The notes beneath the pieces are model-generated. The model had not been told where the DNA came from and ran no database searches. It saw only the letters and a list, made by a program, of their open reading frames with translations. From the NCBI RefSeq assembly GCF_036013525.1, contig NZ_CP107853.1, positions 1,612,001 to 1,676,000 on the forward strand: a stretch of DNA of 64,000 nt, written 5' to 3'. Of the stretch, positions 16,597 through 42,170 are shown one piece after another; the first letter of the stretch is position 1; every line of letters starts with the position of its first letter. The translations under genes were made by a program, and so were the position numbers. Origin of the DNA: Nonomuraea sp. NBC_00507. Its GTDB lineage: Bacteria > Actinomycetota > Actinomycetes > Streptosporangiales > Streptosporangiaceae.

Positions 16597-18956
16597 GGGG
16601 TGTGCCGGTAGTCAGGCCTGCGGGTGGAAGTGACGACCGTGCGGCCGTGTGCTTGTGCGGCAGCTGCTCGGATACGGCGGGCGAGGCCTCGATCGGGTTC
16701 GGGCAGAGGGCGTGTGCGCAGCGTGAAGGGCGGCGTCTCTACGGCTCTGACCACGAGGCGAGCGGCGGCTTGGAAGGCATCGAGGTTGGTCAAGTCGTGC
16801 GTGGTCAAGTGCGGCGTGAAGTGGTGTTCGACCTCGCGGGCGTCTTCGGGGGACAGCGAGAAATAGATCTTGTTGCGGGCGTCCGAGCTGATTGCCTGGC
16901 GTAGGTCGCGAGGCAGCTGGGCCAGATGCTGGTGGGCAAGGGTGAGGGAGATCCGGTAGGCGCGGGCCTCGGCGAGCATGTCAGTGAGGGCGTGCGGCAG
17001 GGTGAGGAAGTTGTGGCACTCGTCCACGTAGATCGCAGCGGGGTTGCGGTGGTGGCCGAGTTTGGCGCGGTGGGCGGCGGCCTGCCACACCTGGGCGAGG
17101 ATCATGGAGCCGAGCAGGCGTGCGGTCTCGTCGCCCAGCACGCCCTTGGGGTGGCGTACGAGCAGGATGCCGCCGTCGAGCACGGTGTCCAGGTCGAACG
17201 TGGAGGTGGCCGAGCCGATGACGTCGCGGACGAACGGGCGGAGCAGGAAAGCACGCAGTTTGTTCATGATCGGCGCGGTGACGTGAGCCTGTGCCTGCTC
17301 TGATAGGGCGCCATACCATGACCAGAAGCCGCGCAACAGCGGATCGCGGATTGTGGCGATCATTCGGTGGCGAGAGGTCTCGTTGGATAGCAACTCGGGG
17401 ATGTCGGCGAGAGTGCCACCGCTGCGGGCCAGGGTGAGGGTGCAGCCACGCAGGATGTCGTCGGTGCGTGGCCCCCAGTAGTCGGCATAGATCTGACGGA
17501 AGACGCCAACGAGGTTGTCCACGCCCATGACCAGGTCCGAACCGGCGAGAACGTTGAGAGAGGGGCGAGGGTGGCGGTCGTCGGGATCGATCAATACGAC
17601 CTTGCCGGCCGCTTCCTCGGGAATGAGTCCGAGAAGGTCCCGGACCAGGTCACCCTTAGCTTCGATGACTACGGTGCCGCGGCCGGCTTCGACATCGGCG
17701 AGGATCATTTGGGCCAGCAGGGTGGATTTTCCGGTGCCGTTGGGGCCGAGCACGTGGACGTGGTGGAAGGAGTCAGGGACACGCAGAGCGACCGGTCGCT
17801 CTTGTCCGGTATCGGAGAAGCCCAGCACTTTCCCGGTTCTGGAGATGGCCGGTGACGGCGGCACGGCGTTGGCGCCGGCGCGTTGGAGACCCGGCACGAC
17901 TGAGTCCAGGGGCAAGTGGGCGAGAGCCGCGAGCTCGGGTACCGAGAGCAGGTAACCGCGCCCCAGCCGACGGCTGGCCAGATGCCGCGTGGGTCGGTAC
18001 ATACGCCGTCTCCCCAGCCGGTTATGGCCGCTGAACAGGGCGAACGCGGCAGCGATGGCGTGCGCGCGGCCGACCACTCCGTTGTGTCGGACGGTCTGCA
18101 GTTGCTTGGTGTCGGCGGGATCGGCCTGTACCGCGTAGCGGACGGCGACCTCGTAGCGGGAATGGTGTGACTTGTCGCGGATGGCGCGCGCTTCAGCGGA
18201 CTCTTCCAGCCGGGTGACTTGGTCGTGAGCGTAGTTGCGCAGGTGGTGGGGATGAAGGCGGGTGTGCAGCGGGCCGGGCGTAAGGAAGTCGAGCAGGCCA
18301 CTGAGCAGCTTGTGTGGACCGCTGCGCGCGAGACGGCCGAGGCGGCGTCCGGTCGCTGGACGGGCGAGGATTTGGACGGTTGCGTGCTGCCAAGGCGGCA
18401 TGCCGACCGCGGCGCCGATTATGGCTCGCAGCGGGTCCGTGGTGTGGTGGTGCCGGATCGGCAAGCGTTCGGTACGGGCGAGCGCGAGCTGTCCACCGCT
18501 GGCTTGGCCGGTGAGCGGGACGGGCGCGCTTGCGCTGTGGATTGCTGTACGGGCGGAGGGCCAGGCCGCTTCTATGGCGCGCTCGACCAGGTATTGCGGT
18601 ACGGCACCGGGCACCCACAACTGGATCTGGACTCCGGCGTTGCTGAAGAGGTACTCGAAGGTGAGGTGCGGCTGGCCGAACAGGACCCTCTTCCACGCGG
18701 GTCGCAAGAGCCCGATGAGGTTGTCCCACAGGGCCTCTGCGCCTGGCATAGCAGCGACGGGTGGAGCGAGAATCTCCACGCATCGCGCGCCTTTGGCCAA
18801 GGGCCGGTGACGTAGCCGCACAAGCGTAAACCGCACGGAAGCGAGCACGATCACGCTGCCGAGAGCCACGGCGGCGAGCTGCCAGACGTGGCCGGCGAAC
18901 CAGGACAGGATGGCTTCGAGGAAGGCTGCGGGGTCTGTGAAGAGGTCGTGAATCAC
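16593..18956 (-). CDS. TraD/VirD4-type coupling ATPase
   Basis: A 787-residue protein. The N-terminus has a membrane helix (about 24-47, LAAVALGSVIVLASVRF) and a long region typical of Gram-positive conjugation ATPases. Walker A GPNGTGKSTLLAQ is near residue 405, Walker B AIYVDECHNFL near 643, and an arginine-finger-like stretch with a sensor QHLAQLPRDLRQAI follows. It should form a hexamer at the inner face of the membrane, bind transfer DNA and feed it to the channel. GTG start overlaps the VirB4 stop by four bases and its stop overlaps the Replic_Relax gene, so it is tightly coupled to both. Family level is certain; the exact clade (TraG/TraD/VirD4) is less so. Confidence 0.9.
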   Translation of the reverse strand: MIHDLFTDPAAFLEAILSWFAGHVWQLAAVALGSVIVLASVRFTLVRLRHRPLAKGARCVEILAPPVAAMPGAEALWDNLIGLLRPAWKRVLFGQPHLTFEYLFSNAGVQIQLWVPGAVPQYLVERAIEAAWPSARTAIHSASAPVPLTGQASGGQLALARTERLPIRHHHTTDPLRAIIGAAVGMPPWQHATVQILARPATGRRLGRLARSGPHKLLSGLLDFLTPGPLHTRLHPHHLRNYAHDQVTRLEESAEARAIRDKSHHSRYEVAVRYAVQADPADTKQLQTVRHNGVVGRAHAIAAAFALFSGHNRLGRRRMYRPTRHLASRRLGRGYLLSVPELAALAHLPLDSVVPGLQRAGANAVPPSPAISRTGKVLGFSDTGQERPVALRVPDSFHHVHVLGPNGTGKSTLLAQMILADVEAGRGTVVIEAKGDLVRDLLGLIPEEAAGKVVLIDPDDRHPRPSLNVLAGSDLVMGVDNLVGVFRQIYADYWGPRTDDILRGCTLTLARSGGTLADIPELLSNETSRHRMIATIRDPLLRGFWSWYGALSEQAQAHVTAPIMNKLRAFLLRPFVRDVIGSATSTFDLDTVLDGGILLVRHPKGVLGDETARLLGSMILAQVWQAAAHRAKLGHHRNPAAIYVDECHNFLTLPHALTDMLAEARAYRISLTLAHQHLAQLPRDLRQAISSDARNKIYFSLSPEDAREVEHHFTPHLTTHDLTNLDAFQAAARLVVRAVETPPFTLRTRPLPEPDRGLARRIRAAAAQAHGRTVVTSTRRPDYRHTP

Positions 18957-20713
18957 AGTTCGGCCTCCTCGTCGTCGAGATTGGCCAACTCCTGTGGGCT
19001 GGACGTGGCAAGATCATGTTCACGCTGGCTGGAGATCACGCGCAGCGGGCAGCGTTGTCCGCCGGGCCCAGCGGTAAGGAGCCCGGTCCCCTTCTCGGCA
19101 GACAGCAGCAGCTGGCGCTCGCCGTCGGAGAGGTGGAAGGCTTCGGCGACCTTGTCGATGGCCTGGGGCGCTTGGCGGAGGAGGATCTGCGTGGTGGAGT
19201 TGGCAATGATCGCTTGGCCGTTCTCCGAGGCGAGCAGGTCGGCGGAATCTTGAGTGACCACACTTAGCCCGGCCCAGTGCTTCCTGGCAGCTTTCGCCAT
19301 CCTCAGCAGGAAGGCGGCGCCCTCGGGATCCTTCATCAGGAGCCAGGCTTCGTCGACGACCACGAGACGGGGGCGTCGTTGCCGCGGGTTGGAGACGCGC
19401 CACCAAATGGCATCCAGCGTGAGCAGGGTGCCGACCGATTTGAGCTCTTCGGGCAGGTCTCGAAGTGAGAAGACAATCAGGTGGGAGTCGGGCCGGGTGG
19501 TGGTCGGACCGGCGAAGAGCTGACGGTGACTGCCGGTCACGTACGGGGCGAGCCCGGCGGCCAACTCTTTGGCCTTGGGGTCTCTGTCCTTGCTCAGCGC
19601 TGTGGACAGGTCTTTGAGCAGGGGCGGGCGGCTGCTCCATGTGCGTGGCTCCGCAGTGATCCCGGCTTGCCGGTAGGCGGCCAAGATGCCGCGGTCGAGG
19701 GCGGCCTTGCTGGCCTTGTCGAGTGGCTCACCCAGCATGACCGCGACGAGTGTGTGCAGGAACAGCGCCCTGCGCGTCAGCGGATCGCTGTCGCGCTGGT
19801 TGAGGGGTGGCAAGTCGAAGGGATTGAGCCTGACCTTCGCCGCGCCGAGATGGATATATGCGCCGCCGACCGCTTTGGCCAGGCGGGCGTACTCGTCCTC
19901 GGGATCGATGACGGCGACCTCGACGCCTACATAGAGGGAGCGGAGAGCTTCCAGCTTGGCCAGGTAGCTCTTGCCCGCGCCGGATCGGGCCAAGATGACG
20001 GAGTTGTGGTTGTCCTGGGCGAAGCGGTCCCAAGCGACGAGGGACGCAGAAGAGAGGTTGGCCCCGTACAGCACGGCGGTGGAGCCGAGTTCTGTGGTCA
20101 GGTCGGGGCTGGTGAAGGGGAAGGCGGTGGCCAGGGCGGGGGTATCGAAGGTACGGCGCATGGTCAGGTTGTCGTAGGCCAGAGGCAGACTCGACACCCA
20201 GCCCTGGAGTTGGCGGAAGGCCACTTGGCGAGCATCGAGCAGCAGTGAGGCTGCCAGTGCGCGGACCTGGGCGCAGGCGTCGTCGAGTTCCTCCTGCGTG
20301 GAGGCGTGGACGGTGAGGTAGATAGAGGCGCGAAACAGCTTGGCCTGACCGCGTGCGATTCTGGAGGCCAGGTCCTGAGCGTCTTCGGCCGCGGCTTCCA
20401 TGCCCGGATCCAGCAATCGTCCGTGCTGGTCGTCGGCGCGCAGCCCGGATTCGAACCTGGCGAGTTGCTTGCGCAGCCGGTCGCTTGCGACGAGGGAGGG
20501 GACGGGTTCGATGTGGAGGGAGACATCCAGCCGTCCGGGGTAGGTGAGCAGAGGTTCCAGCCAGCCGGGCGCCACGTCGCGCGGGTAGCCCGTGATGGCC
20601 AGGGTGGCGCACATACCGTTAGCGATTTCGAGGTTGCGGGGTCGGGCGTGGACCATGTCGGGTCCGAGGCCGGAGGTGGCGGAGGCCGTCCGGCGACGCG
20701 ATGGGAATTTCAC
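18953..20713 (-). CDS. VirB4-type conjugation ATPase
   Basis: A 586-residue cytoplasmic or peripheral-membrane ATPase of the VirB4/TraC/TcpF group. Walker A is ILARSGAGKSYLAKLEAL (about residue 243), followed by VEVAVIDPEDEYARL; Walker B is RLVVVDEAWLLM (about 450), then MAKAARKHWAGLSVVTQDSADLLAS. The N-terminal 200 residues correspond to the VirB4 N-domain with RGQAKLFRASIYLTVHA. It powers assembly of the secretion channel and pilin handling. Starts at GTG 20713 in a GTGA overlap with the PrgI gene. The length is shorter than Gram-negative VirB4 (about 800) but usual for actinobacteria. Confidence 0.9.
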   Translation of the reverse strand: MKFPSRRRTASATSGLGPDMVHARPRNLEIANGMCATLAITGYPRDVAPGWLEPLLTYPGRLDVSLHIEPVPSLVASDRLRKQLARFESGLRADDQHGRLLDPGMEAAAEDAQDLASRIARGQAKLFRASIYLTVHASTQEELDDACAQVRALAASLLLDARQVAFRQLQGWVSSLPLAYDNLTMRRTFDTPALATAFPFTSPDLTTELGSTAVLYGANLSSASLVAWDRFAQDNHNSVILARSGAGKSYLAKLEALRSLYVGVEVAVIDPEDEYARLAKAVGGAYIHLGAAKVRLNPFDLPPLNQRDSDPLTRRALFLHTLVAVMLGEPLDKASKAALDRGILAAYRQAGITAEPRTWSSRPPLLKDLSTALSKDRDPKAKELAAGLAPYVTGSHRQLFAGPTTTRPDSHLIVFSLRDLPEELKSVGTLLTLDAIWWRVSNPRQRRPRLVVVDEAWLLMKDPEGAAFLLRMAKAARKHWAGLSVVTQDSADLLASENGQAIIANSTTQILLRQAPQAIDKVAEAFHLSDGERQLLLSAEKGTGLLTAGPGGQRCPLRVISSQREHDLATSSPQELANLDDEEAEL

Positions 20714-21648
20714 CGTGCTTCCCTCCTCGTGATGGTCTCGTCGGGCAAGGCAAGCCCCTCGCGCCGCAGCGGCGGCGCCGAGGGGTCGAAGCAGACGCTC
20801 AGCAGCGTGTTCACGTCACCGGCGTCGAGCTGGCGAACGGTCAGTCCGCACGCACTCAACAGCCGGGCCGCCTCGACCATCCGACGGAGTGTTCGCGCAG
20901 CGGCGGCGTTCCTGCCGTTGGGCCTCATCAAGGGTTCGCGGATGATGAGGAGGATCTGGCGGCGAAGTAGGTCGTGACGGACGGAAAGATCCGTGAGAAA
21001 CGCTGCATGCTCGCGAGCGGCCAGGCCCAGGGCGGGGTGGGGCAGGAGACGGGCGTGCTCCTCCAATGCGATGATCGCTTCGGACAAGTGGACTCGTTCG
21101 GCGCGGACGAGAATCTGCGCCGGACCAGACAGGGCGTTCAGCCATCGACCGAACACCGCGACCAGGGCCTCCTGCTCTTCGGGGGTCCGCAGGGCGAAAC
21201 TGACAGTGGAGACTTCCGCGACTGCCGCCACGCCGTCCGGGCCCAGGTCGATCATGCCGTCCTGGAGAACTCCCTTGGCGGGCAGCTTGAGGAGGGTCGG
21301 GACCGGTCCTGGCCGTGCGGAGATCCAGGCTGGAGTGGCGGGGATCCCCTCGGCGGTGCTGATGAGGCTCTTGGGGGAACGCTGGTAGCGCATGGCTGCC
21401 AGCAGGTAACGGTCCAGGGAGATGCCGTCGTGCTGTCCGACGGCCAGCAGGAAGCCCCCGACAGCAATTGGAAGAGCTAGCGCGGCGAATGCGACCAGCG
21501 GGAGGTGCTCGCCGAAGGTCAAATAGCCCGCGTAGAGCAGCGCGCCCGCGCCGCCGAGGATGGCCACCTGCCGGGCGGTGAAGCTCCCAATGATCTTGTC
21601 TGCTTGCTCCACGTTGGCGGGGATGCGTACCGGTTCGATCCAGCTCAC
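20710..21648 (-). CDS. PrgI/TcpE-type membrane protein with extended cytoplasmic domain
   Basis: 312 residues from GTG 21648, which overlaps the upstream stop (GTGA); an in-frame extension to 21753 would overlap that gene and is rejected. The start PVRIPANVEQADKIIGSFTA is the PrgI hallmark, followed by two membrane helices (QVAILGGAGALLYAGYL and LVAFAALALPIAVGGFLLA). The remaining 220 residues are cytoplasmic, with FALRTPEEQEALVAVFGRWL resembling the domain that in other systems is fused to or works with VirB4. In Gram-positive transfer systems PrgI-like proteins sit in the inner-membrane complex (VirB3 position). Gene order directly upstream of VirB4 agrees. Confidence 0.85.
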   Translation of the reverse strand: MSWIEPVRIPANVEQADKIIGSFTARQVAILGGAGALLYAGYLTFGEHLPLVAFAALALPIAVGGFLLAVGQHDGISLDRYLLAAMRYQRSPKSLISTAEGIPATPAWISARPGPVPTLLKLPAKGVLQDGMIDLGPDGVAAVAEVSTVSFALRTPEEQEALVAVFGRWLNALSGPAQILVRAERVHLSEAIIALEEHARLLPHPALGLAAREHAAFLTDLSVRHDLLRRQILLIIREPLMRPNGRNAAAARTLRRMVEAARLLSACGLTVRQLDAGDVNTLLSVCFDPSAPPLRREGLALPDETITRREAR

Positions 21649-23120
21649 GAACGTCCACCTCGCCCGTCTTGTCCGCCGCGCCTGCGAGCGGCACGGCTCG
21701 GCCGGCTGGACGCGGTTGGCAGCGGTGCCGACCGATGATCGGGCGGGACCCATGCGGTGTGCGACGCTGACGGAGGTGTTCTTGGTGGCGTGGCTACGGG
21801 TGAGGTCGGGCCATCGGGGGGCGTCCAGCGTTGGCTGGGATTCGACCAGCGCTGATGCGCCTGCGCGGAGCTAGGCGCTCCCCATGCGACAGGCGCGCGT
21901 GTGTCAGGCGGGGTCCACCGCCGCCGCGGTGCCTGCCACCGTGGTTGCGGCTGTGCCGCCTGGGTGCCGGCAGCTGGGGCGGCAGCCTGAACGCCACGCC
22001 GGGCAGCGGCGGCGGCCGTGCCGGCAGCAACGCTCGCCGCGGCACCCACCGGTCCCCCGGCTGAACCGGCGATGGCCTTGCCGACGATCGCACGTCCTGC
22101 CGCTTTACCGACCGAGCTCTTGCCGCCCTTGCCCAAGCGCAGGGCGCTCAAGATAGGGGAGGTGAGTTTGTAGGTCAGGGCGTACTTGACGATCCTGGTC
22201 ACCAGGAAGCCTCGGCCGCCCAGGTCGGCGAAAACGCGCCGGGTCACCCATGACGGGATACGCACCAAGATGACCAGCAGGCACAGGGCGAGCAGCAGGT
22301 TGACGAGTTGGCCGGTGGGCGCGATGCCGAGCAGCAGGCGGCCGTCCTGGTTGAAGAAGATCCGCACGGCCATGACCAGCGTGAGCGACTGGCCGACCTG
22401 GATGATCAACAGGCCGCCGAAACAGCGCCACCAGAAGCGAGCGATCCCGTCGGTATGGGGAAGCGCGTGGCAAGCGAGCGCGAGGGGAGCGGCGACCACG
22501 AGCAGCAGCACCAGCGTGGCGCGCATGATGAAGGTGAGCAGCAGCAGGATGAGCAGGATGACGGCGACCAGCGCGAGCAGGTTGTAGAAGATCTGGCCCT
22601 GGGTCGGTGGGATGATCAAGTAGCGGATGGAGGCCTGCGCGCGGGACGCGTCGAAGTCCTGACCAAGCAGCGCACGCGACAAGGCGTTGGCAACCTCGAT
22701 GACCTTGCCACAGAGCAGGAAGCTGGCATTGGTTAAGAGGACTGCCAGGGCCAGGCGCGGCAGGACTTCCCTGACCGCGTAGCGCGTCTGGAGCGTCTGG
22801 TGGCTCATGGCCACGATGGCGCCGATCGTGGCAAGGATGAGGAAGCTGGAGTTGGCCATGGCCACACAGACTTTCCACAGGTCGGCGACCCTGCCGCTGG
22901 ACGTGACGTCCGGGGTGGCCAGCAGCGTGGCGCCCAAGAGGTTCAGCAGTGGCTTGATCGCGGAAGCCACCAGGCCAGCGAACCAGGAGTTGATCTGGTC
23001 GGCGATCCAGCCGCCAATGCCCGCGCTGCCCCCAGTTCCGCCCAAGGGGGAATCGCCCCACGGCAGCGGATTGGTCGGAATACTCGGCGTCGGGCTCGGG
23101 GAGGGGGTCGGCGTGAACAT
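21645..23120 (-). CDS. Polytopic VirB6/TrbL-like conjugation membrane protein
   Basis: 491 residues from ATG 23120; the longer frame to 23564 lies inside the upstream gene and is a shadow. After a Pro/Ser/Thr-rich N-terminus there are about five to seven membrane helices, for example FLILATIGAIVAMS, LALAVLLTNASFLL, LLALVAVILLILLLLTFIM, LVLLLVVAAPLALACH and VNLLLALCLLVILVRI. The C-terminal 160 residues are a low-complexity Ala/Pro/Trp/Arg tail (RWTPPDTRAP repeats), likely cytoplasmic. This layout matches VirB6/TrbL channel components of Gram-positive type IV systems. It begins five bases after the pilin-gene stop. Tail repeats RWTPPD occur at least twice and may bind DNA or partner ATPases. 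Confidence 0.85.
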   Translation of the reverse strand: MFTPTPSPSPTPSIPTNPLPWGDSPLGGTGGSAGIGGWIADQINSWFAGLVASAIKPLLNLLGATLLATPDVTSSGRVADLWKVCVAMANSSFLILATIGAIVAMSHQTLQTRYAVREVLPRLALAVLLTNASFLLCGKVIEVANALSRALLGQDFDASRAQASIRYLIIPPTQGQIFYNLLALVAVILLILLLLTFIMRATLVLLLVVAAPLALACHALPHTDGIARFWWRCFGGLLIIQVGQSLTLVMAVRIFFNQDGRLLLGIAPTGQLVNLLLALCLLVILVRIPSWVTRRVFADLGGRGFLVTRIVKYALTYKLTSPILSALRLGKGGKSSVGKAAGRAIVGKAIAGSAGGPVGAAASVAAGTAAAAARRGVQAAAPAAGTQAAQPQPRWQAPRRRWTPPDTRAPVAWGAPSSAQAHQRWSNPSQRWTPPDGPTSPVATPPRTPPSASHTAWVPPDHRSAPLPTASSRPSRAARRRGGQDGRGGRS

Positions 23121-23125
23121 GGCTC

Positions 23126-24430
23126 TCACCCGCCGCCCACGACGCGCTGGAGCACGTTGACGAACAGCGGCGCGAGGACCGCCAGCCCGTACCCCAAGGC
23201 GGCGGCCTTGAGCGCGGTCTTGGCCTTGGCCACCTCGCCCGGATCGCCGCCCGCAATCAGATACCGCAACCCGCCGATGGTCAGCATCAGCGTCGCCAAC
23301 GCAGCGAGCAGACCGATCAGCCAGTTCCGCAGGTTGGTGAAGACCGCGTTCAAGTCCGAGGGCGGCGCGGGGGTTGCCGCAAGTGCCGCACCGGCCGCCA
23401 CCGCGAGAACGACCCCTGCCACGACTACGACTGCCACGACCAGGAGTGCCATCCTGCAGAATCGGCGCCTGCGGAAATTGCCACGCGGCTGCTTCCAGTG
23501 CGCGGTGGCAGGTTGCCGCGGGGTGATGGAGAGGGTCCGCGCGGAGCCAGTGGGGCAGCCCCAACCTCCCTTCTGCTCGCTGCTGACAGGCTGCGAATCT
23601 GAGGCGATCCGACTCCGCGCGGACGTTTCCGGAATCACCTCCTCACTCCTTCTAGGGAGCCTGGAAGTGATCGTTAGGGACAGCGCCGACTCGACTTCCC
23701 CCGCCAGCACCGCGTCGATCAACAAGGGCTCGGCGCGCTGGCGGCGCTTCTTGGCCCCTTCGGTACTCAGCCCGAGCAGTGCGGCGGCTTCCGCCAGGGT
23801 GCGCTTCTCCAGCCGGGTCAGTGCGATCAGCTCGGCGTCCAGGTCGCTGACGACGCCCTTGGCGACCGCGTCGGCGAGAACGAGGTCCGGGTGCCCGTAG
23901 GGCGTTGGCGGCTCGGCCGACTCATGGAGCGGGAAGCTACGCGAGGCGTCTGACTCGGCGAGCTCTCGTGCTCGCTGGCCGGCACGCTTCGCGGCGTCCC
24001 TCATCCGAGGAAGGATGTTCGGCAGATCAACGTCGATGGTGCGGAGGGCCTCGATGAACCGGGCGAGCACCTCGGTGTCGATGTCGGTCGAGTCGCCCGC
24101 GACGTAGCCACGGCAGATCCGCCCCGAAACTGCCCGGAGCGCCGGTACGGCAACGCCGACCGCTCCCACCAGCCACTGGGCCCCCTCGTGCCGCGCCCGC
24201 GTGACCAAATGGCGCCAGACCACATCACGCGTGGCATTGGACACCTCGCGGGAGCTGAGCAGGTTCCGCAACTCGGTGAGCAATATCGAGCGCTGCGGCA
24301 GCTCGTGCCCGAGCACAGTGCCGTCCACGGCCAGGCCACCAGGCTCGCAGGCAACCAAGCGGAAGACGCGGTCAGCAACATCGAGCGGTGAGGGATCTGT
24401 ACCAATCATGTCGTGCAGCGCGGTAGACAT
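23126..24430 (-). CDS. HTH (sigma-4-like) domain fused to a VirB2/TrbC-like pilin
   Basis: A 434-residue protein, first gene of the secretion operon, with GGAGCAAGCCG before ATG 24430. Residues 1-300 form a soluble helical protein; residues about 195-250 hold an HTH like sigma region 4 (LIALTRLEKRTLAEAAALLG, STEGAKKRRQRAEP). After a basic linker, Met 327 starts a signal-like helix (LLVVAVVVVAGVVLAVAAGA, then ALA-AT, a possible cleavage site) and a pilin core with two helices, including RNWLIGLLAALATLMLTIGG, GGDPGEVAKAKTALKAAALG and VLAPLFVNVLQRVVGG. No stop separates the parts, and the internal ATG lacks a good SD. It may be one regulator-pilin polyprotein or two products from one frame. Confidence 0.8.
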   Translation of the reverse strand: MSTALHDMIGTDPSPLDVADRVFRLVACEPGGLAVDGTVLGHELPQRSILLTELRNLLSSREVSNATRDVVWRHLVTRARHEGAQWLVGAVGVAVPALRAVSGRICRGYVAGDSTDIDTEVLARFIEALRTIDVDLPNILPRMRDAAKRAGQRARELAESDASRSFPLHESAEPPTPYGHPDLVLADAVAKGVVSDLDAELIALTRLEKRTLAEAAALLGLSTEGAKKRRQRAEPLLIDAVLAGEVESALSLTITSRLPRRSEEVIPETSARSRIASDSQPVSSEQKGGWGCPTGSARTLSITPRQPATAHWKQPRGNFRRRRFCRMALLVVAVVVVAGVVLAVAAGAALAATPAPPSDLNAVFTNLRNWLIGLLAALATLMLTIGGLRYLIAGGDPGEVAKAKTALKAAALGYGLAVLAPLFVNVLQRVVGGG

Positions 24431-24455
24431 CGGCTTGCTCCGTTGCGAGAGGAAA

Positions 24456-24775
24456 TGCGTTCTCGCATCCCGATGTACGCGCCACCTCTGGCACCCCTCT
24501 GGCTCCCCGAATCGGCGACCTTGGGCGCCAGAGACAACCTGTTGACGACCTTGACCTCGGCTTGTCCGCCAATGGTCCGCCCAAGGTCACTGCCGTGGGT
24601 GGAAAGGGTTCGCCAAAGCTGCGCCCATGCCCTGCCAGAGGCGCGTGCTCAACTGATAGGCGCGGATCTGAGGACCGCCCTACCTGGCGATGGACACGTC
24701 CATAGTCATCACCCGTGGGGGTGAATCACCCCCGACGGCCATCCAGCCCACCACAGCGCCGTGCACCGGGAGCCC
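24456..24775 (+). repeat. Structured leader element, copy 1
   Basis: Runs from TGCGTTCTCGCA (a small hairpin) to an ATG at 24690 and some 80 bases beyond, and matches copy 2 at 27152-27445. Nested pairing: CACCTCTGGC (24483-24492) with GCCAGAGGCG (24634-24643), enclosing GACCTTGGGCG (24517-24527) with CGCCCAAGGTC (24578-24588). A 22-base block at 24652-24673 is identical in both copies. The frame after the ATG (MDTSIVITRGGESPPTAIQP) resembles that of copy 2 but then loses coding character, so this copy seems to precede a lost gene. Confidence 0.6.
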
Positions 24776-25032
24776 ATCCCGCCCGTGGACATCGGGACGG
24801 TCGGCGTTGCCTAGCAAAAGGTCCAGCACCCAGCCGCCGCTCTCCCGGGCTTCAGCGTGCGCACGGGTCACAAATCCCCTGTTCAGGGCCTATGTCACAG
24901 GTCGTGCAATGCGTGGCTGCATGACTGGCTCCCGCAAGCACGCATCACGAGAGCAGCCCGTCGACGTGAGTCACAGCTCGTCTCCGCTTCCTCCACAGAA
25001 CGCTTACTCCTCTTCAGAAGGGAATGCTGATC

Positions 25033-25419
25033 ATGACGTCGCATCGCCGTACACGCCGCTTCGCGATCGTGGCAGGAGCCGCTGCTGCATGTCTGCTGGC
25101 GATCTCTCCAGCCGCTCACGCGGGCGCCCGAGCCTGGTCTGACGGCTACGGAAACGTCGGCCACGGAGAGATCGTCTTCGACCGGAAAGAGATCGTGGTC
25201 TGTGACTCCCGCAACGACACCGATCGCGTCGGCGTCGAATACGAGGTCGCCTACGGCCCCTTCCGTAGAACCGCGCTCCTCCAGGCCGGCCCCAGACGAG
25301 GCTGCAAGATTGACAACGTCCTGCTGGGCACCATCACCTCGGCGAAATTCTGCTACGGCGGCGACGTGAGCTCCGGCCCGGGCAGCTATCGCCACTGCAA
25401 CAACACCGCACGGTTCTGA
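25033..25419 (+). CDS. Small secreted protein
   Basis: 128 residues with a clear Sec signal peptide: basic RRTRRF, hydrophobic AIVAGAAAACLLAISPAAHA with cleavage after AHA. The mature part (about 95 residues) has four cysteines (VVCDS, RGCKI, KFCYG, RHCNN) likely to form two disulfides, and no domain I recognise. ATG 25033 has AGAAGGG 12 bases upstream; ATG 25024 in frame is the alternative but sits too close to it. A strong terminator follows the gene. Secreted small disulfide proteins are typical of streptomycete-like genomes; possible roles include inhibitors or surface factors, but none can be assigned. Confidence 0.65.
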   Translation: MTSHRRTRRFAIVAGAAAACLLAISPAAHAGARAWSDGYGNVGHGEIVFDRKEIVVCDSRNDTDRVGVEYEVAYGPFRRTALLQAGPRRGCKIDNVLLGTITSAKFCYGGDVSSGPGSYRHCNNTARF

Positions 25420-25486
25420 CAGCCCACTCCCCAGAGACACGTCCCACAGTGGGTCGAAAAGATCTTCGATCCAGACCACGTCTTCC

Positions 25487-25519
25487 ACGGCCTCGCCCCT
25501 CAGCGTCGGGCGAGGCCGT
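25487..25519 (+). terminator. Perfect 12-bp terminator hairpin
   Basis: Arms ACGGCCTCGCCC (25487-25498) and GGGCGAGGCCGT (25508-25519) with a nine-base loop, 68 bases after the secreted-protein stop. No T-run. Confidence 0.65.
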
Positions 25520-25670
25520 CCCATATCGTCACCATCATCGATGACGCCATCATGGACGCCACGCTGGGCAGCACCGAGGTCAGCACGGCTGTGATGCCGT
25601 CCCCTTTTCCGGGTGCCCTGCCCTGCCGGGGATGCGAACCCGCCGTTGCGCGGAAGAGCGGAAGATCCTC

Positions 25671-26294
25671 ATGCAGCAACCCAACAACCTCGGCCACGCC
25701 GCCCTGAACCTCGACGCGATCATCAAGTGGTCCACGATCGTCGTCGTTCTTCTCCTGGCGGCCATTGCCGCGATCGTCTCCTACCGCCACGCACACGAGC
25801 TTGTCTCCGCGTACGGCGAGACAGGGATCACGGCGGCGCTCGTCCCGCTCACTGTCGATGGGCTCGTCTACGCCTCCTCCATGGTTTTGCTGCAGGCGGC
25901 CCGGCTGGCCCGGCCCGCGCCACTCCTGGCGCGCCTCCTCCTGGCTGTCGGCATCCTGGCCACCCTCGGCGCGAACGTGGCGCACGGCTGGGGAACCGGC
26001 CTCATCGGTGCGATTGTCAGCGCCTGGCCCGCAGTGGCTCTGGTCGGCTCATACGAACTACTGATGTGGCTCCTGCGAGCCGACGCCCGGCCCGCCACGG
26101 ACCGGGCGGAGCCGGATGTGGACCAAGAAGCGCTCGCCGTCTACCGCGCGAGCATAGAGTCCGGAGAGCCCCTCTCACAGCGCGAACTCGCCCGGCGGTT
26201 CGGCCGCTCCCGACGGTGGGCCGCCGGAATCGCCGAGCAGGCAAACGAAACCGGCAGCGAAAACAGCGAAGATCGTACCGCAACCAGCGCCTAA
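25671..26294 (+). CDS. DUF2637 (SpdB-like) membrane protein with C-terminal HTH
   Basis: 207 residues from ATG 25671. Four membrane helices: IIKWSTIVVVLLLAAIAAIV, ITAALVPLTVDGLVYASSMV, LARLLLAVGILATLGANVA and LIGAIVSAWPAVALVGSYEL. The last 60 residues are cytoplasmic with a small HTH (SQRELARRFGRSRRWAAGI). The helix with the PLTVDGLVYA motif defines DUF2637, related to the spread proteins SpdB of actinomycete plasmids and integrative elements, which help the element move through the mycelium after transfer. RBS CGGAAG precedes the start. A second family member is encoded at 38999-39907 in the other element. Confidence 0.85.
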   Translation: MQQPNNLGHAALNLDAIIKWSTIVVVLLLAAIAAIVSYRHAHELVSAYGETGITAALVPLTVDGLVYASSMVLLQAARLARPAPLLARLLLAVGILATLGANVAHGWGTGLIGAIVSAWPAVALVGSYELLMWLLRADARPATDRAEPDVDQEALAVYRASIESGEPLSQRELARRFGRSRRWAAGIAEQANETGSENSEDRTATSA

Positions 26295-26352
26295 CACGAC
26301 ACAACCTTGCAACGAGGGGCCCAGCATCGCGTGGCGACGCAGGCGAGCTGGA

Positions 26353-27033
26353 TCACGCACTGACGGCGTAGTGCGAGGTGATCTCGATGCCGATGAAGGA
26401 GCGGCCCTCGGCGAGGGCGGCCACACCGGTGGAGCCGGAGCCAGCGCACGGGTCCAGAACGGTTCCGCCAGCCGGGCAGATGCGTACGAGCTGCCGCAGG
26501 ACCTCGACCGGTTTCTGCATGATGTGGTGGCGTTGGTGGCCACGGGGCTGGGAACCCTCGACCAGGCCGGGCAGATAGATCGGGGTGTCGTGGCGGAACG
26601 GGGCGCCGTGACTGCCCCACAGGATGTACTCGCACTCGCGACGGAAGCCATCACGTACGGGCCGGGCGATCGGCTTATGCCACGGGATGACGCCGCGCCA
26701 GGTCCAGCCGGCGGCCTGCAGCGCATCGCTCGTGGCGGGAGTCTGGCGCCAGTCGCAGAACACCAGGCAGGAGGCGCCAGATCGGGCGGTGCGCAGGCCC
26801 TAGGCGAGGACCAGGGTGAGCCAGTAGGTGTAGCCGCGTTGGTCGCGGTTATCTCCGACGAAGTCAGCCAAGTCGTGCGCCGCGTCACTGCGTATGTACT
26901 TGTCACGGGCGCTCTGCAAGGCTCGTTCGTTGCCGGTTCGTCCGCCGCTGTTGTACGGCGGGTCGGCCAGCAGCAGATCCACGAAGCGCTCGGGGATGGC
27001 GAGTACGTCGCCGTGGTAGATGGTCCAGGACAA
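26353..27033 (-). pseudogene. Beta-class DNA methyltransferase interrupted by an in-frame TAG
   Basis: Read on the minus strand from ATG 27033: MSWTIYHGDVLAIPERFVDL, motif IV LLADPPYNSGG, then YTYWLTLVLA and TAG at 26800-26802, after which the same frame continues GLRTARSGASCLVFCDWRQT, WTWRGVIPWHKP, CEYILWGS, QKPVEVLRQLVRICPAGGTV and motif I LDPCAGSGSTGVAAL to the normal end. The order DPPY then FxGxG marks a beta-class adenine-N6/cytosine-N4 enzyme of about 227 residues. The position of the stop corresponds to a Glu/Gln-like codon in the family. Without readthrough only a 77-residue fragment with no SAM site is made, so it is probably inactive. Confidence 0.85.
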
Positions 27034-27151
27034 ACGAGGTCTCCCCTTCGGGTCGCATACACCGCGAGCGGGTGAGCGAGTCGAGACGAGGGTGGAAACC
27101 CAGGGGTCCTGGCCCCAGCTACCCCCCGGTTGAGCCGGGACCAGGAGTCTT

Positions 27152-27365
27152 TGCGTTCTCGCATCCCGATATACGCCCCACCTCTGGCAACCCTCCGGCT
27201 ATCCGGATCGGCGACCTTGGGCGCCAGAGCCGCTCCGTAAATGACCTTGACCTCGGCCCATCCGCCAGAAGAACGCCCAAGGTCACCGCTGTAGGCGCGC
27301 ATACCCCGCCAGAGGTGAGTGCTCCACTGATAGGCGCGGATCTGAGGCCCGCCCCTCACTCGGCG
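27152..27365 (+). promoter_or_regulatory. Structured leader element, copy 2
   Basis: Copy of the element at 24456. Small hairpin TGCG-TTCT-CGCA; outer stem CACCTCTGGC (27179-27188) with GCCAGAGGTG (27308-27317); inner stem GACCTTGGGCG (27213-27223) with CGCCCAAGGTC (27274-27284); a 22-base invariant block at 27326-27347 ending in a GAGG that could be a ribosome binding site; then ATG 27366. Loops differ between copies while the stems are kept, which favours a functional RNA (or DNA) structure. Lies before a methyltransferase-like frame. Confidence 0.6.
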
Positions 27366-27716
27366 ATGAACACGCCCACCACCATCACCGGCGAAGGTGA
27401 ATCGCCTCCGACCACCATCCAACCGACCACCACGCCAAGGACCGTTCCCGCGTGTTCCGGCTACGGCTGGCTGGACCTTGGGATCATGGCCACCACCGTT
27501 CACCGTTGGGAAGCCGTATCTGGACGTCATGCCCCCAACCGTTTCATTGAATGGACAATGAGGCTGCCCAACGGATGGGTCAGCGCCGTCTCCGGCCTGC
27601 CCCACACCGCCCAATCGCGCGCCGTCGGCAACGGAGTCGTCCCCCGGCAGACCGCGCCTGCCCTCACTATCCTCGACGAGACGCTCGGCGGAGGAGGCCC
27701 GCGATGGAGACCTTGA
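27366..27716 (+). pseudogene. Internally deleted C5-cytosine methyltransferase
   Basis: A 116-residue frame from ATG 27366. After a Thr/Pro-rich start comes ACSGYGWLDLGIMA, which matches motif I (SGYGGLDLGV) at the N-terminus of C5-methyltransferases, followed at once by VHRWEAVSGR, RFIEWTMRLPNGWV and QSRAVGNGVVPRQTAPAL, the C-terminal motifs IX/X. The roughly 200-300 residues between, including the PCQ and ENV motifs, are missing. The product cannot methylate DNA. The ORF overlaps the HTH gene start at 27704. I infer an in-frame deletion; the remaining parts are well conserved. Confidence 0.65.
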
Positions 27717-27934
27717 CGGTCGCGGACCTGGAACACCTACCACCGACCGTCGACCTCATGACAGCTGCCAAGGCCCTCGGTATCGGCCGTACAAAGGCTT
27801 ACGCACTCGCGAAGGCAGACAACTTTCCTGTCCACCTCATACGCGTCGGAGACCAGTACCGTGTCTCCACGATGGACCTCATCAGAATTCTTCAAGGTCC
27901 CAGGGCCGCTGCGGAGGCACCGAACCCCCCTTGA
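27704..27934 (+). CDS. Excisionase-like HTH protein
   Basis: 76 residues; ATG 27704 preceded by GGAGGAGG. The core VDLMTAAKALGIGRTKAYAL, then HLIRVGDQYRVSTMDLIRIL, is the MerR-like winged helix of the excisionase/HTH_17 family. Small proteins of this type bend att-site DNA during excision or regulate element genes. It overlaps the end of the deleted methyltransferase frame by 13 bases. A hairpin terminator follows at 27953. No integrase is nearby (the only one, at 3.4-4.9 kb, is broken), so its function may be regulatory. Confidence 0.75.
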   Translation: METLTVADLEHLPPTVDLMTAAKALGIGRTKAYALAKADNFPVHLIRVGDQYRVSTMDLIRILQGPRAAAEAPNPP

Positions 27935-29586: not shown

Positions 29587-30105
29587 ATGCCCGCCATTCC
29601 GGAGTCGACCAAGACCTCCCTGGCCCAGCGACTGCGCCAGCGCGCCCGCGACCGCTGGCCCCAACTGGCAGGACTACACGTCCGCTACCACGGCCAGTTC
29701 GCCTACGTCGAAGGTGAACTGACCGACGGAGACCAGCTGCCCCTCATCCGGCTCCGCTACGGCGGATCGGCCTCCATCTGGGGATTCGGGCTCTACCTCG
29801 CCAGCAGCGGCAAGTACGAAAACCAGATCCTGCCCACCGGCATGTCCGCCGGCACACCCCAAGAAGCCCTCGACTGCGCCTGCGATCTCTATGGTGCCCT
29901 GCTGTCAATCCAGCTGGGGTGTCGGTCGTGGTTGCCGCATCCGCAGCGTCCCCGCGTGCAAGGGCCGCCGAAGATGGGCTCGCCTCCATGGCGAGGCGGG
30001 CCGGCCGTTGGCGCCGGCACGTACTCGTCGGCGAGCCGGCCACGTCAGGCCACGGGGTTTACAACGCATGATTGGCCAGAGGCAACTGCAGCCACGACGG
30101 CGTGA
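29587..30105 (+). pseudogene. Conserved actinobacterial hypothetical, C-terminus replaced
   Basis: From ATG 29587: MPAIPESTKTSLAQRLRQRA, HVRYHGQFAYVEGEL, PLIRLRYGGSASIWGFGLY, LPTGMSAGTPQEALDCACDL. These are the blocks of a small hypothetical protein frequent in actinobacterial accessory regions. In intact copies the sequence after the CACDLY helix ends within about 15 residues; here it passes into SIQLGCRSWLPHPQ and a further 60 residues of non-coding character. The 3' end therefore seems lost by recombination near 29905. No function is known. Confidence 0.5.
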
Positions 30106-30256
30106 TGAAAGCCAGACGACAGGGCTCACCGCCAGGATGGTGGTGTGTCAGACCAAGGGCGGCGCTGGGTGGGCACGCCATGTCCCGGCTGAGCCGTCGC
30201 ACCATTGTCAGAGCAGCGGTGCGCCGTACCACGTTGCAGCGGGGAAGGGGGACCAG

Positions 30257-33200
30257 ATGACGCAGGTGATTCCTGGTTGGAAGGATTGGATCGACCGGCC
30301 GGAGGTAGACCGGGTGGTCGAGGCTCTGACTTCGGGGGAGAGCGGGGTTGTGGTGGTGGCCCCGGATCTGGAAGGGGTCGGAGGGCTGGGCGTTACCGCC
30401 GTGGCGGCGGCTGCCCTGCACCGTACAGAGGTGATCGAGCACTTCCACGAGGGTGTCTGCTGGGCCCGCGTGGGCGACGCGCGTACGGAGCACTGGGCCG
30501 ACGACGTGTTGAAGGCCGCAGATGGCATGTGGGGTAAGGACGACGAACCCTTCCTCCAGTCTGACTTGATCGAAATCCACGCGGCCCTTCACGACGAGGA
30601 AGCGGCACGCGAATTGATGGACGATATGTTCGCCCCGGGACCTCGATTGATGGCGGTCGACGGGCTGCCTGATGGTGGCCTGCTGTTGCCCTTGGCATAC
30701 ATTGTGCGGGGCTGCGTGTGGCTGGCCATGGTGGACAGCGCAGGTGAGGCGCCGCCGGTAGCGGACGTGGTGCGCGTCGGCCCGATGTCATTGGCCGAGG
30801 GCGTGGCGCTGTTGCGCCGTGACCTGCCCTCGCTGGATGAGGGAACGGCAGTGCGGCTGGCGGAGTTGACCGGCGGCTGGTCGTTGGCGCTGACGCTGGC
30901 CCACTCGATGATCCTGAGCCAGGTGGTGACAGGGGAATCGGCCAACGTCGCAGCCACGCAAGTCGCCGAACGGCTGCCGCGCAGCCTCGACCTCGCCGAC
31001 CGCGCCTCAAGAGAGGCCTTGATCGGTGCGCTAGTGGATCACTCGCTCAATTGGCTACCCCTGGTGGATCCGGGAGCCTCCGAGCGGTTTCTGGAGCTGG
31101 GCCTGTTCGCCGAGGAGAAGCCGATTCCGGTCGGCGTGGCGGCGATGATGTGGGGAGTCGTGGGCATGACGGGCGACGAGATCGGCGCGCTCATCGCGCG
31201 GTTGGAAGCGCTGTCGCTGCTGGAGCGGCGCACCGATGAGGCGGTTCTGGAACTCGCTCCTGCCGTCATGGCATACGTACGCGATCGCCTCGGCCCCGAA
31301 GGGCTCGACCATGCCCGGCGGAGATTGATCGATGCTGACCCGGACGACATCCTGGAGGGGTGGGCTGTCTTGCCCGGCACCAGGGAGTGGGTGGTGCGTA
31401 ACCTGCCCGACCACTACCTGGCCGCTGGCGAGATGGAGCTGCTGGCGGGGCTGGTGTGCGACGTGTCATGGATCGCCGATCGGACGATCCTTTCCGGCGT
31501 CGAAGGGGTCGTGGAGGATCTGTCCAAGGTGGGCACCGGGCAGGCCGAGTTGCTCATCCGTACCATTGCCGCCTCTGCACACCTGCTTGAATCCGCGCGA
31601 GAGACGGGTCTGAGCCTGCTGCCCACCCTGGCCTGCCGTCTGCATGCAGTGCCAGGGAAAGCAGAGGAGGCTCACACAAGGTTGCGGGAGATGGGCAGGC
31701 CATGGTTGGAATCGCGCTGGACACCGCCGGACCTACCCCACCCCGCGCTCCTTCGCACCCTGCACAGCCGCACCGATGAGATGACCGACGTCACGATCGC
31801 GCCCGACGGCACCTGGCTGGCCGGCGCGAATGCGGACGGGCGGGTACTGTGCTGGCGCGTGGACGGTGCGCGGCTGGGGAGTCTGCTCGGCCACGAGTCC
31901 ATCGTCACCTCAGTCGACATCGCGGCTGACGGAGCCTGGCTGGCGAGCGCGGCCTGGGATGGGACCGTACGTCTGTGGGATGTCGACGGGACACCGCGTG
32001 CCGTACTGTCAGATCACCCCGGCGTCGTGCAGGCCGTCGCCATCGCACCCGACGGCAGTTGGCTCGCCTCGGCGGGTGAGGGGTTCCTCCGGTTCTGGAA
32101 CTCCGACGGGACGCTGCGTGCCGCGGTCTCGGGGCGGGACGCTTCTTACGAGCGCGTCGCGATCGCCCCCGACAGCTCGTGGCTGGCGGCCGTCGGGTTC
32201 GACGTCGCCGAGTTCTGGAACGCCAACGGGACACTCAAGGCCATCCTCGGCAAGCGCCACGTCGGCGCGGGTGCACTTGCCTTCGCTCCCGGGGGGCAGT
32301 GGCTGGCGCTGATTGCCAGGGACGGCAAGATCCAGCTGCTCAACCCGGACGGCACCATGCGCGCCTCGCTCGACGACGTGATCTACAGCTGCAATTCTGG
32401 TTTAGCCGTCGCGCCCGATGGCCGGTGGCTGGCCGTATCGGACTTCGACGACGTGATCCTCGCGGACGTGGACGGCTCGACCCGCGCCCGCCTCCCCGGA
32501 CGCAGCGCTGACGTCGTTGCCGCCATCGCAATCGCGCCCGGCGGTAGTTGGCTGGCCTCGGCTGGCAACGATCGTACGATCCGGATCTGGGACACGAACC
32601 CAGCTGCGACAGGAGGTAGCAAAGAGCGGAGCGGCACGCGCGAGCTGGAAGCCGTCGCCATCGCACCGGACGGCTCGTGGCTGGCCACGGCCGGGCTAGA
32701 CGGCCTCATCTTCTGGGACGCCGACGGCAGCCTGCGCTCCAAGGGCCAGCAGGCGTGGATGTGCAGTGTGGACATCGCCGCCGACGGCGGGACCCTGCTC
32801 ACCGGCGGCGGGAGCGACGGTACGGTGCGGCTGCACGAGACCGATGGCACGGTACGCCGCAGCGACGTCGTGCCAGGCGCATCCGATATTCGTGCGGCGG
32901 CGATCGCGCCGGATGGCACGTGGATGGCGATCGGCTACCAGGACCGAGTGAGGATCATGGCAGCGGAGGGCAGGAGGTCCAAGACCCTCAAGCGTCTGGG
33001 CGACGAGGTCAATGCCGTCGCCATCGCACCTGACTCATGCTGGCTCGCCGTGGCGGCGGGTCAGCACCTGCAGCGGTGGAGCACCAAAGGCCGCAAGCTC
33101 GGTCCCGTCGCGGAAACCTGCGGCCCTATCTCGGGGGTGGCGATCGCCCCCGACGGGCAGTCCCTGGCCGCAGTCACGACCTTGGGCTCAGTTGAGCTGT

Positions 33201-33460
33201 TCGACCTGGACGGTGGCGTGCTGATAGGGCAGTTCAGGGCGGACGAGTGGGTGAGGGGCGTCGCATTCTCCCCCGACGGTGCCTGGTTGGCTACGACGGC
33301 GGAGAACGGATGTCTTCGGGTGTGGGACGTCGGCACGCTCAGCTGTGTCGCTGTCATCGTCGTAGACGGCGCCTTGCGCGACTGCGCATGGTTTCCCGAC
33401 GGCTCGGGGTTGTGTGCGGTAGGCAATCCCGGCTTGTTCGGTTTCACCTTCCACCGGTAA
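30257..33460 (+). CDS. STAND-type NTPase with WD40 propellers, P-loop lysine missing
   Basis: 1067 residues from ATG 30257 (GGGGAAGGGGGA upstream); the longer frame to 29891 has no support. Residues about 15-320 form an NB-ARC-like NTPase: VVVVAPDLEGVGGLGVT with the P-loop at about 40-47 in which Val replaces the usual Lys before Thr; Walker B-like GPRLMAVDGLPDG; a winged-helix region follows. Residues about 495-1067 are WD40 repeats of the type VAIAPDGSWLASAG...WD.DGT, at least twelve, enough for two propellers. Such proteins sense a signal with the propeller and oligomerise on NTP binding to drive effectors, often in defence. No effector domain is recognised. The missing lysine suggests no hydrolysis. 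Confidence 0.8.
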   Translation: MTQVIPGWKDWIDRPEVDRVVEALTSGESGVVVVAPDLEGVGGLGVTAVAAAALHRTEVIEHFHEGVCWARVGDARTEHWADDVLKAADGMWGKDDEPFLQSDLIEIHAALHDEEAARELMDDMFAPGPRLMAVDGLPDGGLLLPLAYIVRGCVWLAMVDSAGEAPPVADVVRVGPMSLAEGVALLRRDLPSLDEGTAVRLAELTGGWSLALTLAHSMILSQVVTGESANVAATQVAERLPRSLDLADRASREALIGALVDHSLNWLPLVDPGASERFLELGLFAEEKPIPVGVAAMMWGVVGMTGDEIGALIARLEALSLLERRTDEAVLELAPAVMAYVRDRLGPEGLDHARRRLIDADPDDILEGWAVLPGTREWVVRNLPDHYLAAGEMELLAGLVCDVSWIADRTILSGVEGVVEDLSKVGTGQAELLIRTIAASAHLLESARETGLSLLPTLACRLHAVPGKAEEAHTRLREMGRPWLESRWTPPDLPHPALLRTLHSRTDEMTDVTIAPDGTWLAGANADGRVLCWRVDGARLGSLLGHESIVTSVDIAADGAWLASAAWDGTVRLWDVDGTPRAVLSDHPGVVQAVAIAPDGSWLASAGEGFLRFWNSDGTLRAAVSGRDASYERVAIAPDSSWLAAVGFDVAEFWNANGTLKAILGKRHVGAGALAFAPGGQWLALIARDGKIQLLNPDGTMRASLDDVIYSCNSGLAVAPDGRWLAVSDFDDVILADVDGSTRARLPGRSADVVAAIAIAPGGSWLASAGNDRTIRIWDTNPAATGGSKERSGTRELEAVAIAPDGSWLATAGLDGLIFWDADGSLRSKGQQAWMCSVDIAADGGTLLTGGGSDGTVRLHETDGTVRRSDVVPGASDIRAAAIAPDGTWMAIGYQDRVRIMAAEGRRSKTLKRLGDEVNAVAIAPDSCWLAVAAGQHLQRWSTKGRKLGPVAETCGPISGVAIAPDGQSLAAVTTLGSVELFDLDGGVLIGQFRADEWVRGVAFSPDGAWLATTAENGCLRVWDVGTLSCVAVIVVDGALRDCAWFPDGSGLCAVGNPGLFGFTFHR

Positions 33461-36048: not shown

Positions 36049-36067
36049 CTGAACTGCTGAAACTCTG

Positions 36068-36114
36068 TGGGGCTACCAGGACTTGAACCTGGGACCTCTT
36101 CCTTATCAGATAAG
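36068..36114 (-). other. attachment site: 3' half of tRNA-Ile(GAT)
   Basis: Read on the minus strand: CTTATCTGATAAGG (anticodon arm with GAT), then AAGAGGTCCCAGG, the T arm GGTTCAAGTCC and the acceptor strand GGTAGCCCCA. The 5' half of a tRNA is absent at higher coordinates. Elements that integrate into tRNA genes leave such a displaced 3' half at the far end, so the inserted element lies to the right and an intact tRNA-Ile is expected at its other end beyond the window. Confidence 0.85.
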
Positions 36115-36204
36115 TCAGCCAAGATCTCTGACCTGCACGATCTACAAACGCCCTGGTAGACACGATATCTGAAGCAGTTTCGCTTCTTTTCGATTCATTT
36201 CAGC

Positions 36205-41948: not shown

Positions 41949-42170
41949 CTAGTCGACCAGCGTGAAGTCGAGGTAGTACGACGTGCCCGGCTCGAACGAC
42001 ACGTTCGGGTTGTCCACCTGGATGCGCAGTTCGCCTGAGGGCGTGTACTTCGCGTATCGCCGGTCCTCGGGCACGTCCGCGTCGTACTCGGCGCTGAACC
42101 GGAAAGTGCGTGTTCCGGGCTGCGAGTACGTTTCGACGCTCGTGCAGCGGAACTTGGCCCGTACGGTCAT
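41949..42170 (-). CDS. Small beta-rich phage protein, 73 aa
   Basis: ATG 42170 is preceded by GGAGGGACAC. An upstream ATG at 42266 would overlap the endolysin stop (ATGA) and add 32 low-complexity residues; both starts are possible. The product is strand-rich (RTFRFSAEYDADVPEDRRYA, TSYYLDFTLVD). It occurs among lysis genes; function unknown. Confidence 0.55.
   Translation of the reverse strand: MTVRAKFRCTSVETYSQPGTRTFRFSAEYDADVPEDRRYAKYTPSGELRIQVDNPNVSFEPGTSYYLDFTLVD

Follow-up and report, generated by a model that had tools for sequence, protein, structure and literature searches.

Helix-phased repeats beside the transfer operon of an actinobacterial integrative and conjugative element, a candidate binding site of its relaxase

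The DNA analyzed here (the window) comprises 64,000 nucleotides of Nonomuraea sp. NBC_00507 (NZ_CP107853.1, positions 1,612,001 to 1,676,000; coordinates below are those of the window) and carries an integrative and conjugative element (ICE) with an intergenic element in two copies, of which copy 1 adjoins the first gene of the secretion operon and copy 2 adjoins a gene of the HTH_17 family. This element is very probably a DNA control site of the ICE, and on the basis of sequence comparisons it is an evenly balanced proposition that it holds the binding site of a MOBC-type relaxase within an origin of transfer (oriT) and doubles as an operator. Support at the sequence level comes from the phasing of short repeats to the DNA helix, their geometry relative to predicted promoters, the lineage-specific repeat sequence, its near restriction to the site, and its co-variation with one helix of the relaxase. 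In five of the six relatives first examined (L003, L004, L006, L007, and L008), the element lies between the first gene and a variable gene on the opposite strand, referred to below as the right-hand gene.

Relatives were collected with an alignment of the first gene, which had matches at an E value of 1e-20 or better in 142 of 345 searched genomes of the order; the best 80 of 123 became the named loci (L numbers). The repeat counts included 67 distinct intergenic regions. Set aside ahead of the various counts were 21 near-duplicate regions, L040, L045, and L046 (fragments or off-target starts), L055 (short), and L024 and L052 (core found in neither); repeat sequences were inspected by eye in part of the loci. 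Across the 67 loci, 190 pairs of identical 6-mers were found at an offset of 11, compared with 4 to 42 at any other offset between 7 and 30, and in a set of 31 regions there were 86 such pairs against about 5 in simple shuffles. At least one offset-11 pair was present in 29 of 36 near loci (5 to 11 at five control offsets) and in 17 of 31 distant loci (4 to 10). The repeats have opposite orientations at the two ends of the element, and their sequence differs by lineage: the window and its near relatives have GCCAGAG, a second group has TTCTGAG, and distant ICEs have still other motifs; GCACGAA and CGAGCCAGTGC are also among the lineage-specific sequences. Moreover, motif pairs with at most two mismatches fell almost exclusively inside the element in the relatives, with L027 and L028 as exceptions. 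Genome-wide motif counts were below control (98 and 83 versus 147 and 137), showing no excess elsewhere, and a genome-wide regulon was rejected for this reason.

Across the family, a 7-bp motif recurring every 11 bp, one turn of the helix, stands in pairs and runs at a set distance from the −10-like boxes of two predicted promoters that diverge toward the transfer operon and the right-hand gene. Copy 1 carries on the minus strand a predicted leftward −10-like box, TACATC (24472 to 24477), and, with the box's TA at the characteristic spacing, the repeat pair CTCTGGC-N4-CTCTGGC (24486 to 24503), which has an 11-bp period and is the only exact pair in the genome. The plus strand carries GCCAGAG in the opposite orientation (24527 to 24533), then GCCAAAG (24612) and GCCAGAG (24634), 22 bp apart (24612 to 24640), the conserved core GCGGATCTGAGGACCGCCC (24662 to 24680), and the conserved ATG of the right-hand gene (24690 to 24692), which is a remnant after about 26 codons. 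Copy 2 has a predicted box TATATC (27168 to 27173, minus) at the same TA spacing, the pair CTCTGGC-N4-CTCCGGC (27182 to 27199, minus), the plus-strand repeats GCCAGAG (27223), GCCAGAA (27264), and GCCAGAG (27308) within 27223 to 27314, the core GCGGATCTGAGGCCCGCCC (27336 to 27354, plus), and a start codon leading into a decayed DNA methyltransferase remnant (27366 to 27716, plus; C5 type by eye). The cores were delimited in two alignments, copy 1 in both and copy 2 in A4: A8 holds six homologous sequences (the two window copies and four relatives), and A4 is a set of the same type with the addition of L017, whose left half is nonhomologous, making five relatives. A core similar to that of copy 1 occurs in relatives. 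Among the 36 loci examined, 32 had a script-found pair, and in 25 of these exactly 8 nt separated the TA of the −10-like box from the nearest repeat of the pair; in the TTCTGAG loci, a T..[CT]C[CT] box occurred at the same spacing on the rightward side in 18 of 18. In these 18 loci the rightward predicted promoter shares the layout repeat-N4-repeat-N8-box with the leftward one.

The proposed reader of the repeats is the relaxase of the ICE, encoded at 15688 to 16596 (minus) and matching Replic_Relax (PF13814; E value, 1.2e-44), a family listed as MobC in PMC5357655. Its AlphaFold2 (AF2) model (pLDDT, 92.8) has an N-terminal winged helix-turn-helix (HTH), in a domain resembling winged helices of the MarR/TubR type. 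P168-D169, E186, D188, and K200 were invariant in 41 relaxase sequences, and a PD-(D/E)XK-type nuclease was considered; restriction endonucleases appeared only among weak Foldseek matches (E values of about 0.006 to 0.02). In Mantel tests on 22 loci, distances between repeat motifs correlated with those between recognition helices (r = 0.82) and nuclease domains (r = 0.76), and the partial correlation was 0.54 for the helix given the nuclease domain (reached in 0 of 2,000 permutations) and 0.27 for the nuclease domain given the helix, values tempered by the assignment of repeat classes by hand and by a control for shared ancestry that is partial. In the nuclease domain, L024, L047, and L038 (51 to 54%) are no closer to the window than the TTCTGAG loci are (48 to 54%), yet in these three the repeats are GCC-type and the helix reads RKRLL. 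For L022, L007, and L184, no relaxase was found. In 15 loci, the partial correlation of repeat class was 0.68 with the relaxase helix and 0.43, which is not zero, with the N-terminal part of the first gene. Repeat class therefore tracks the relaxase recognition helix better than it tracks either the nuclease domain or the sigma-like first gene.

In the mechanism that we propose, the MOBC relaxase of the ICE itself would read the repeats through its N-terminal winged helix, and by analogy with TraX of pAD1 the repeats would form the binding site of the oriT. Bound relaxase may then repress the transfer operon, its own gene included, as well as the right-hand gene, since the repeats are positioned on both promoters. 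A candidate nic region is the core beside the right-hand ATG, next to which some lineages have a hairpin; nicking is predicted in or near GCGGATCTGAGG-CCCGCCC, and because the core adjoins that ATG, the right-hand gene would be the first to enter the recipient. A resemblance of the core to the nic sequence of CloDF13 was considered and dropped.

Several known systems share features with this arrangement. In Enterococcus, TraX of pAD1 is a MOBC relaxase whose N terminus is a winged HTH, and the five direct repeats to which it binds are located 70 to 120 bp from nic (review PMC12857230); the present site is similar in pairing such a relaxase with short direct repeats away from a nic that is here putative, and it differs in belonging to Actinobacteria, in its 11-bp phase, and in having repeats on both sides, in opposite orientations and at promoters. 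The stbDRs of R388 form two sets, each of five direct repeats 9 bp long and separated by 2 nt (an 11-bp period); they surround a promoter beside oriT (PMC3098194) and, like the IncA/C oriT lying over the mobI promoters, offer a parallel for repression of an operon by bound relaxase. The likeness to stbDR/StbA lies in 11-bp-period repeats around a promoter, which is here a predicted one, whereas in the present family the repeat sequence varies between elements and the array stands at the secretion operon. In IncA/C, direct and inverted oriT repeats overlap the mobI promoters in a divergent intergenic region (PMC5587640), although those repeats are 14 bp long and AT rich and belong to a different relaxase system. 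Finally, the oriT subtypes of the pWBG749 family in Staphylococcus combine a conserved core with diverging SmpO specificity sites read by a matching protein (PMC8136818). The combination of conserved core and variable specificity sequences is shared, but the SmpO reader is a ribbon-helix-helix protein acting at two sites 65 to 67 bp apart, in contrast to the phased arrays and the proposed relaxase winged helix considered here.

Further data weigh partly for and partly against the relaxase-binding oriT. In an unguided scan of 26 named loci, the best 300-nt stretch for offset-11 pairs lay upstream of the first gene in 12 and was tied there in 4 more. In the Nonomuraea window, the best offset-11 stretch fell on copy 1 but was tied with one at 58751, its maximum was no higher than those at offsets 10 and 16, and the two loose motif pairs detected were not above shuffles (2.7). 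The phasing signal is accordingly a property of the family, and the window by itself is not exceptional. Also against it, L168 and L189 combine CTGAG-type repeats with a relaxase helix of another kind. In its favor, arrays occur on two actinobacterial plasmids that have the same transfer genes, consisting of GCACGAAGGTG in L190 and of CGAGCCAGTGC, exact or slightly varied, in four copies in L191; each array adjoins the first gene and recurs near the start of another gene. A third plasmid, L192, has no strong array. A motif that is identical or nearly so occurs at two places about 0.7 to 1.9 kb apart in L190, L191, and L060, as would be expected of an operator rather than of a single oriT. When 20 more Replic_Relax regions from the class were examined, offset 11 was highest or jointly highest in only 7, so that 11-bp phasing is not universal at this sensitivity, and some of these regions had stronger periods at other offsets. 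Two of the 20, L237 and L240, do support the proposal with striking arrays that have inverted halves: 150 nt hold 33 hits in the one and 21 in the other, whereas no other offset exceeds 5; these very dense GATCTGACACA arrays (L237, 10989 to 11090; L240, 1173 to 1335) lie near PF13814 genes of a distant actinobacterial genus.

The strongest competitor, a less probable but serious one, is a site that is operator only, in which the repeats would regulate both divergent promoters, another ICE regulator, such as the sigma-like product of the first gene, would read them, and oriT would lie elsewhere. In its favor are the constant distance of the repeats from the −10-like boxes of both promoters, the doubled motif places, and the sigma2/sigma4-like fold of the first gene (23126 to 24430, minus), whose sigma-factor-like part is fused to a type IV secretion system (T4SS) pilin (PF18895) according to Pfam, the AF2 model, and PDB comparison. 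The best Foldseek matches of that model were mostly sigma factors, none at an E value of 0.001 or better, and Pfam gave weak matches to sigma region 4 in 8 and to region 2 in 1 of 37 members. However, region 4 is missing in L025, L029, L030, L031, and L036 (all TTCTGAG) and in L028, L038, and L003, all of which bear repeats, and the first-gene product as repeat reader was rejected for this reason; the higher partial correlation of the relaxase helix points the same way. PDB sequence searches gave nothing useful, and NCBIfam gave nothing. In the relatives of this sigma-factor-like protein, the pilin is either fused to it or follows it.

A partition or replication site, that is, a centromere- or iteron-like array in the style of ParR, TubR, or StbA that would stabilize the excised ICE, is improbable. 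The stbDRs, at the promoter of an operon adjacent to oriT, and the MarR/TubR-like N-terminal domain of the relaxase would agree with it, but among the partners seen to covary with the repeats the relaxase is the strongest.

The sequence-only reading of the two copies had proposed a structured 5′ RNA leader controlling a methyltransferase gene or, alternatively, a DNA site such as an oriT. An ordinary RNA leader is unlikely, and a riboregulator of a methyltransferase gene has a very low probability, whereas the oriT-like alternative is supported in kind, given a conserved intergenic ICE site, helix-phased lineage-specific repeats, and an encoded MOBC relaxase. The stems were said to be kept while loops differ, but among their 30 pairs on A8 only 1 has a double change (as in 266 of 500 shuffles), with a covariation score of 0.100 against 0.106 in shuffles (452 of 500), and the pairs were 69.3% paired, a level that 7 of 500 shuffles attained (shuffle value, 68.0%), compared with 25 to 42% when they were slid. 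With L017 added (seven sequences), 68.4% were paired (18 of 500 shuffles), with 5 double-change pairs against 3.0 (45 of 500) and a score of 0.165 against 0.154 (105 of 500). The 11-bp stem GACCTTGGGCG/CGCCCAAGGTC is perfect in both copies and, being identical in them, carries no covariation. The third hairpin, described as keeping its pairing despite base changes, is complete only in the two window copies, with 0 or 1 of 5 pairs in the four relatives; of the small 5′ hairpin, 1 to 3 of 4 pairs are retained in these relatives. A palindrome, GCGAGA..TCTCGC, lies just downstream of the leftward −10-like box of copy 1 (24445 to 24466, minus), in the 5′ untranslated region of the secretion operon; copy 2 retains its right arm only, and in A4 the palindrome has 76% of cells paired and one double change, not above shuffles. 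For the stems described, the homologues therefore lack base-pair covariation, the outcome named beforehand as speaking against an RNA leader.

Minimum-energy folds differ between the copies, whose folding z scores were −1.8 and −2.0, with −2.6 and −3.2 on the other strand (window reference, −0.5 ± 1.25). In many loci the whole element folds somewhat better than average on both strands, a consequence to be expected of having one short motif at both ends in opposed orientations. RNAalifold on alignment A3 chose long-range pairing with one double change. Rfam gave no match at gathering score in the window, with two chance-level matches (E values of 1.6 and 4.3) in 24200 to 27800, and the repeat-array region had mean z scores of −0.13 and −0.46. 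What favors a leader is another hairpin, located immediately downstream of the rightward −10 as predicted, with a mean z of −2.73 in the 18 TTCTGAG loci (−0.76 to −4.85; controls, −0.63, −0.67, and −0.13) and also present in five of six near relatives (−2.05 to −4.26; L004, −0.49). Against this, it is absent from both window copies (+0.2 and −0.5) and from eight further loci (all above −1.1). Separately, hairpins that by eye seem to pair the ribosome-binding site were seen in the transfer-operon leaders upstream of the first gene in L153, L155, L158, L183, and L059; they differ in sequence and could silence read-through transcripts.

The link to methyltransferases is real but indirect, as the right-hand gene differs between relatives. 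Copy 2 does lead into a methyltransferase remnant, in which the piece at 27438 to 27713 matched actinophage DNA methylases in 220 of 50,697 phage records (best E value among the matches listed, 1e-11), while Pfam had no match on the remnant; for copy 1, only the first 26 or so codons are common with copy 2, and no family was detected. Differences after the ATG, thought to fall mostly in third codon positions, did so in 11 of 21 cases, with 9 amino acid changes in 26 codons, a weak tendency. Pfam identified the right-hand gene as an N4/N6 DNA methylase in L003 and L017 and had no match for the right-hand proteins of L008, L004, and L036; the labels GNAT and PAPS-reductase-like given to right-hand genes are guesses by eye. 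Methylase genes beside the site would fit a leading region, since this class is enriched in the leading regions of plasmids (PMC11541004). That enrichment, and the opposed repeats that could fold on one strand, would also suit a single-stranded DNA promoter of the Frpo/ssi kind driving leading-region anti-restriction genes from the incoming strand, but the promoters are laid out as in duplex DNA, the repeats all facing one side of the helix, and a single-stranded promoter is very improbable.

The existence of exactly two copies in the 12.9-Mb genome was borne out, as were the 22-base invariant block, located by a window search at exactly 24652 to 24673, where it overlaps the copy-1 core and possible nic region, and at 27326 to 27347, and the common ATG (24690 and 27366). 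The copies are 74% identical over positions 13 to 305 of the 321-base query and 82% identical over 214 aligned core positions, and their core identity to the five relatives in A4 is at most 64%; they probably arose by duplication within this ICE lineage, long enough ago to diverge. Judged in this way, the second copy is an old duplication that now lies between two decayed methyltransferase genes, the one on its left being an incomplete N4/N6 DNA methylase (26353 to 26763, minus; PF01555; E value, 8e-19; profile positions 52 to 216 only), which together with a DUF2637 gene occupies the stretch between the copies. In the sixth of the relatives first examined (L017, from the same genome as L052), about 1.9 kb separates the core half from the first-gene half, which holds the promoter, with the core (L017) at about 4057 and the first gene at 6001 in L052, as if an insertion had split the site, a situation to be compared with the two copies of the window.

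By Pfam, the ICE surrounding the element comprises an integrase (3914 to 4885), an NlpC/P60 protein, the Replic_Relax relaxase, and a transfer operon (16593 to 23564, minus) with TraG/VirD4-like, VirB4-like, PrgI, and TrbL genes, in addition to the first gene. The HTH_17 gene beside copy 2 (27551 to 27934, plus) is excisionase-like (PF12728; E value, 1.1e-5, just below the curated cutoff); a homologue also stands behind the right-hand gene in L036, and homologous open reading frames occur in 8 other loci. A tRNA-Pro (TGG) gene is located at 36067 to 36152, and no direct repeat of its region of at least 14 bases, as an attachment site, was found in the window. A long WD40-like repeat protein (29891 to 33460) lies beside the ICE genes, and lysin-, tape-measure-, capsid-, and terminase-like genes at 42000 to 64000 resemble a prophage, both by eye only.

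Taken further, the relaxase-binding oriT leads us to suggest, tentatively and with more doubt than confidence, that the MOBC relaxases of actinobacterial ICEs and plasmids repress their own operon through 11-bp-phased oriT repeats and that the recognition helix diverges in step with the repeat, giving every lineage an address of its own in a self-addressing transfer switch. If so, an ICE would neither transfer nor silence its neighbors in genomes that carry several. In the open-access literature searched, as far as its accessible text extends, no description of the oriT of MOBC-type T4SS ICEs of Actinobacteria was found. A predicted cis site together with a predicted reading helix makes mobilization testable in antibiotic-producing actinomycetes, and the repeat and helix pairs would constitute a natural set of specificity pairs.

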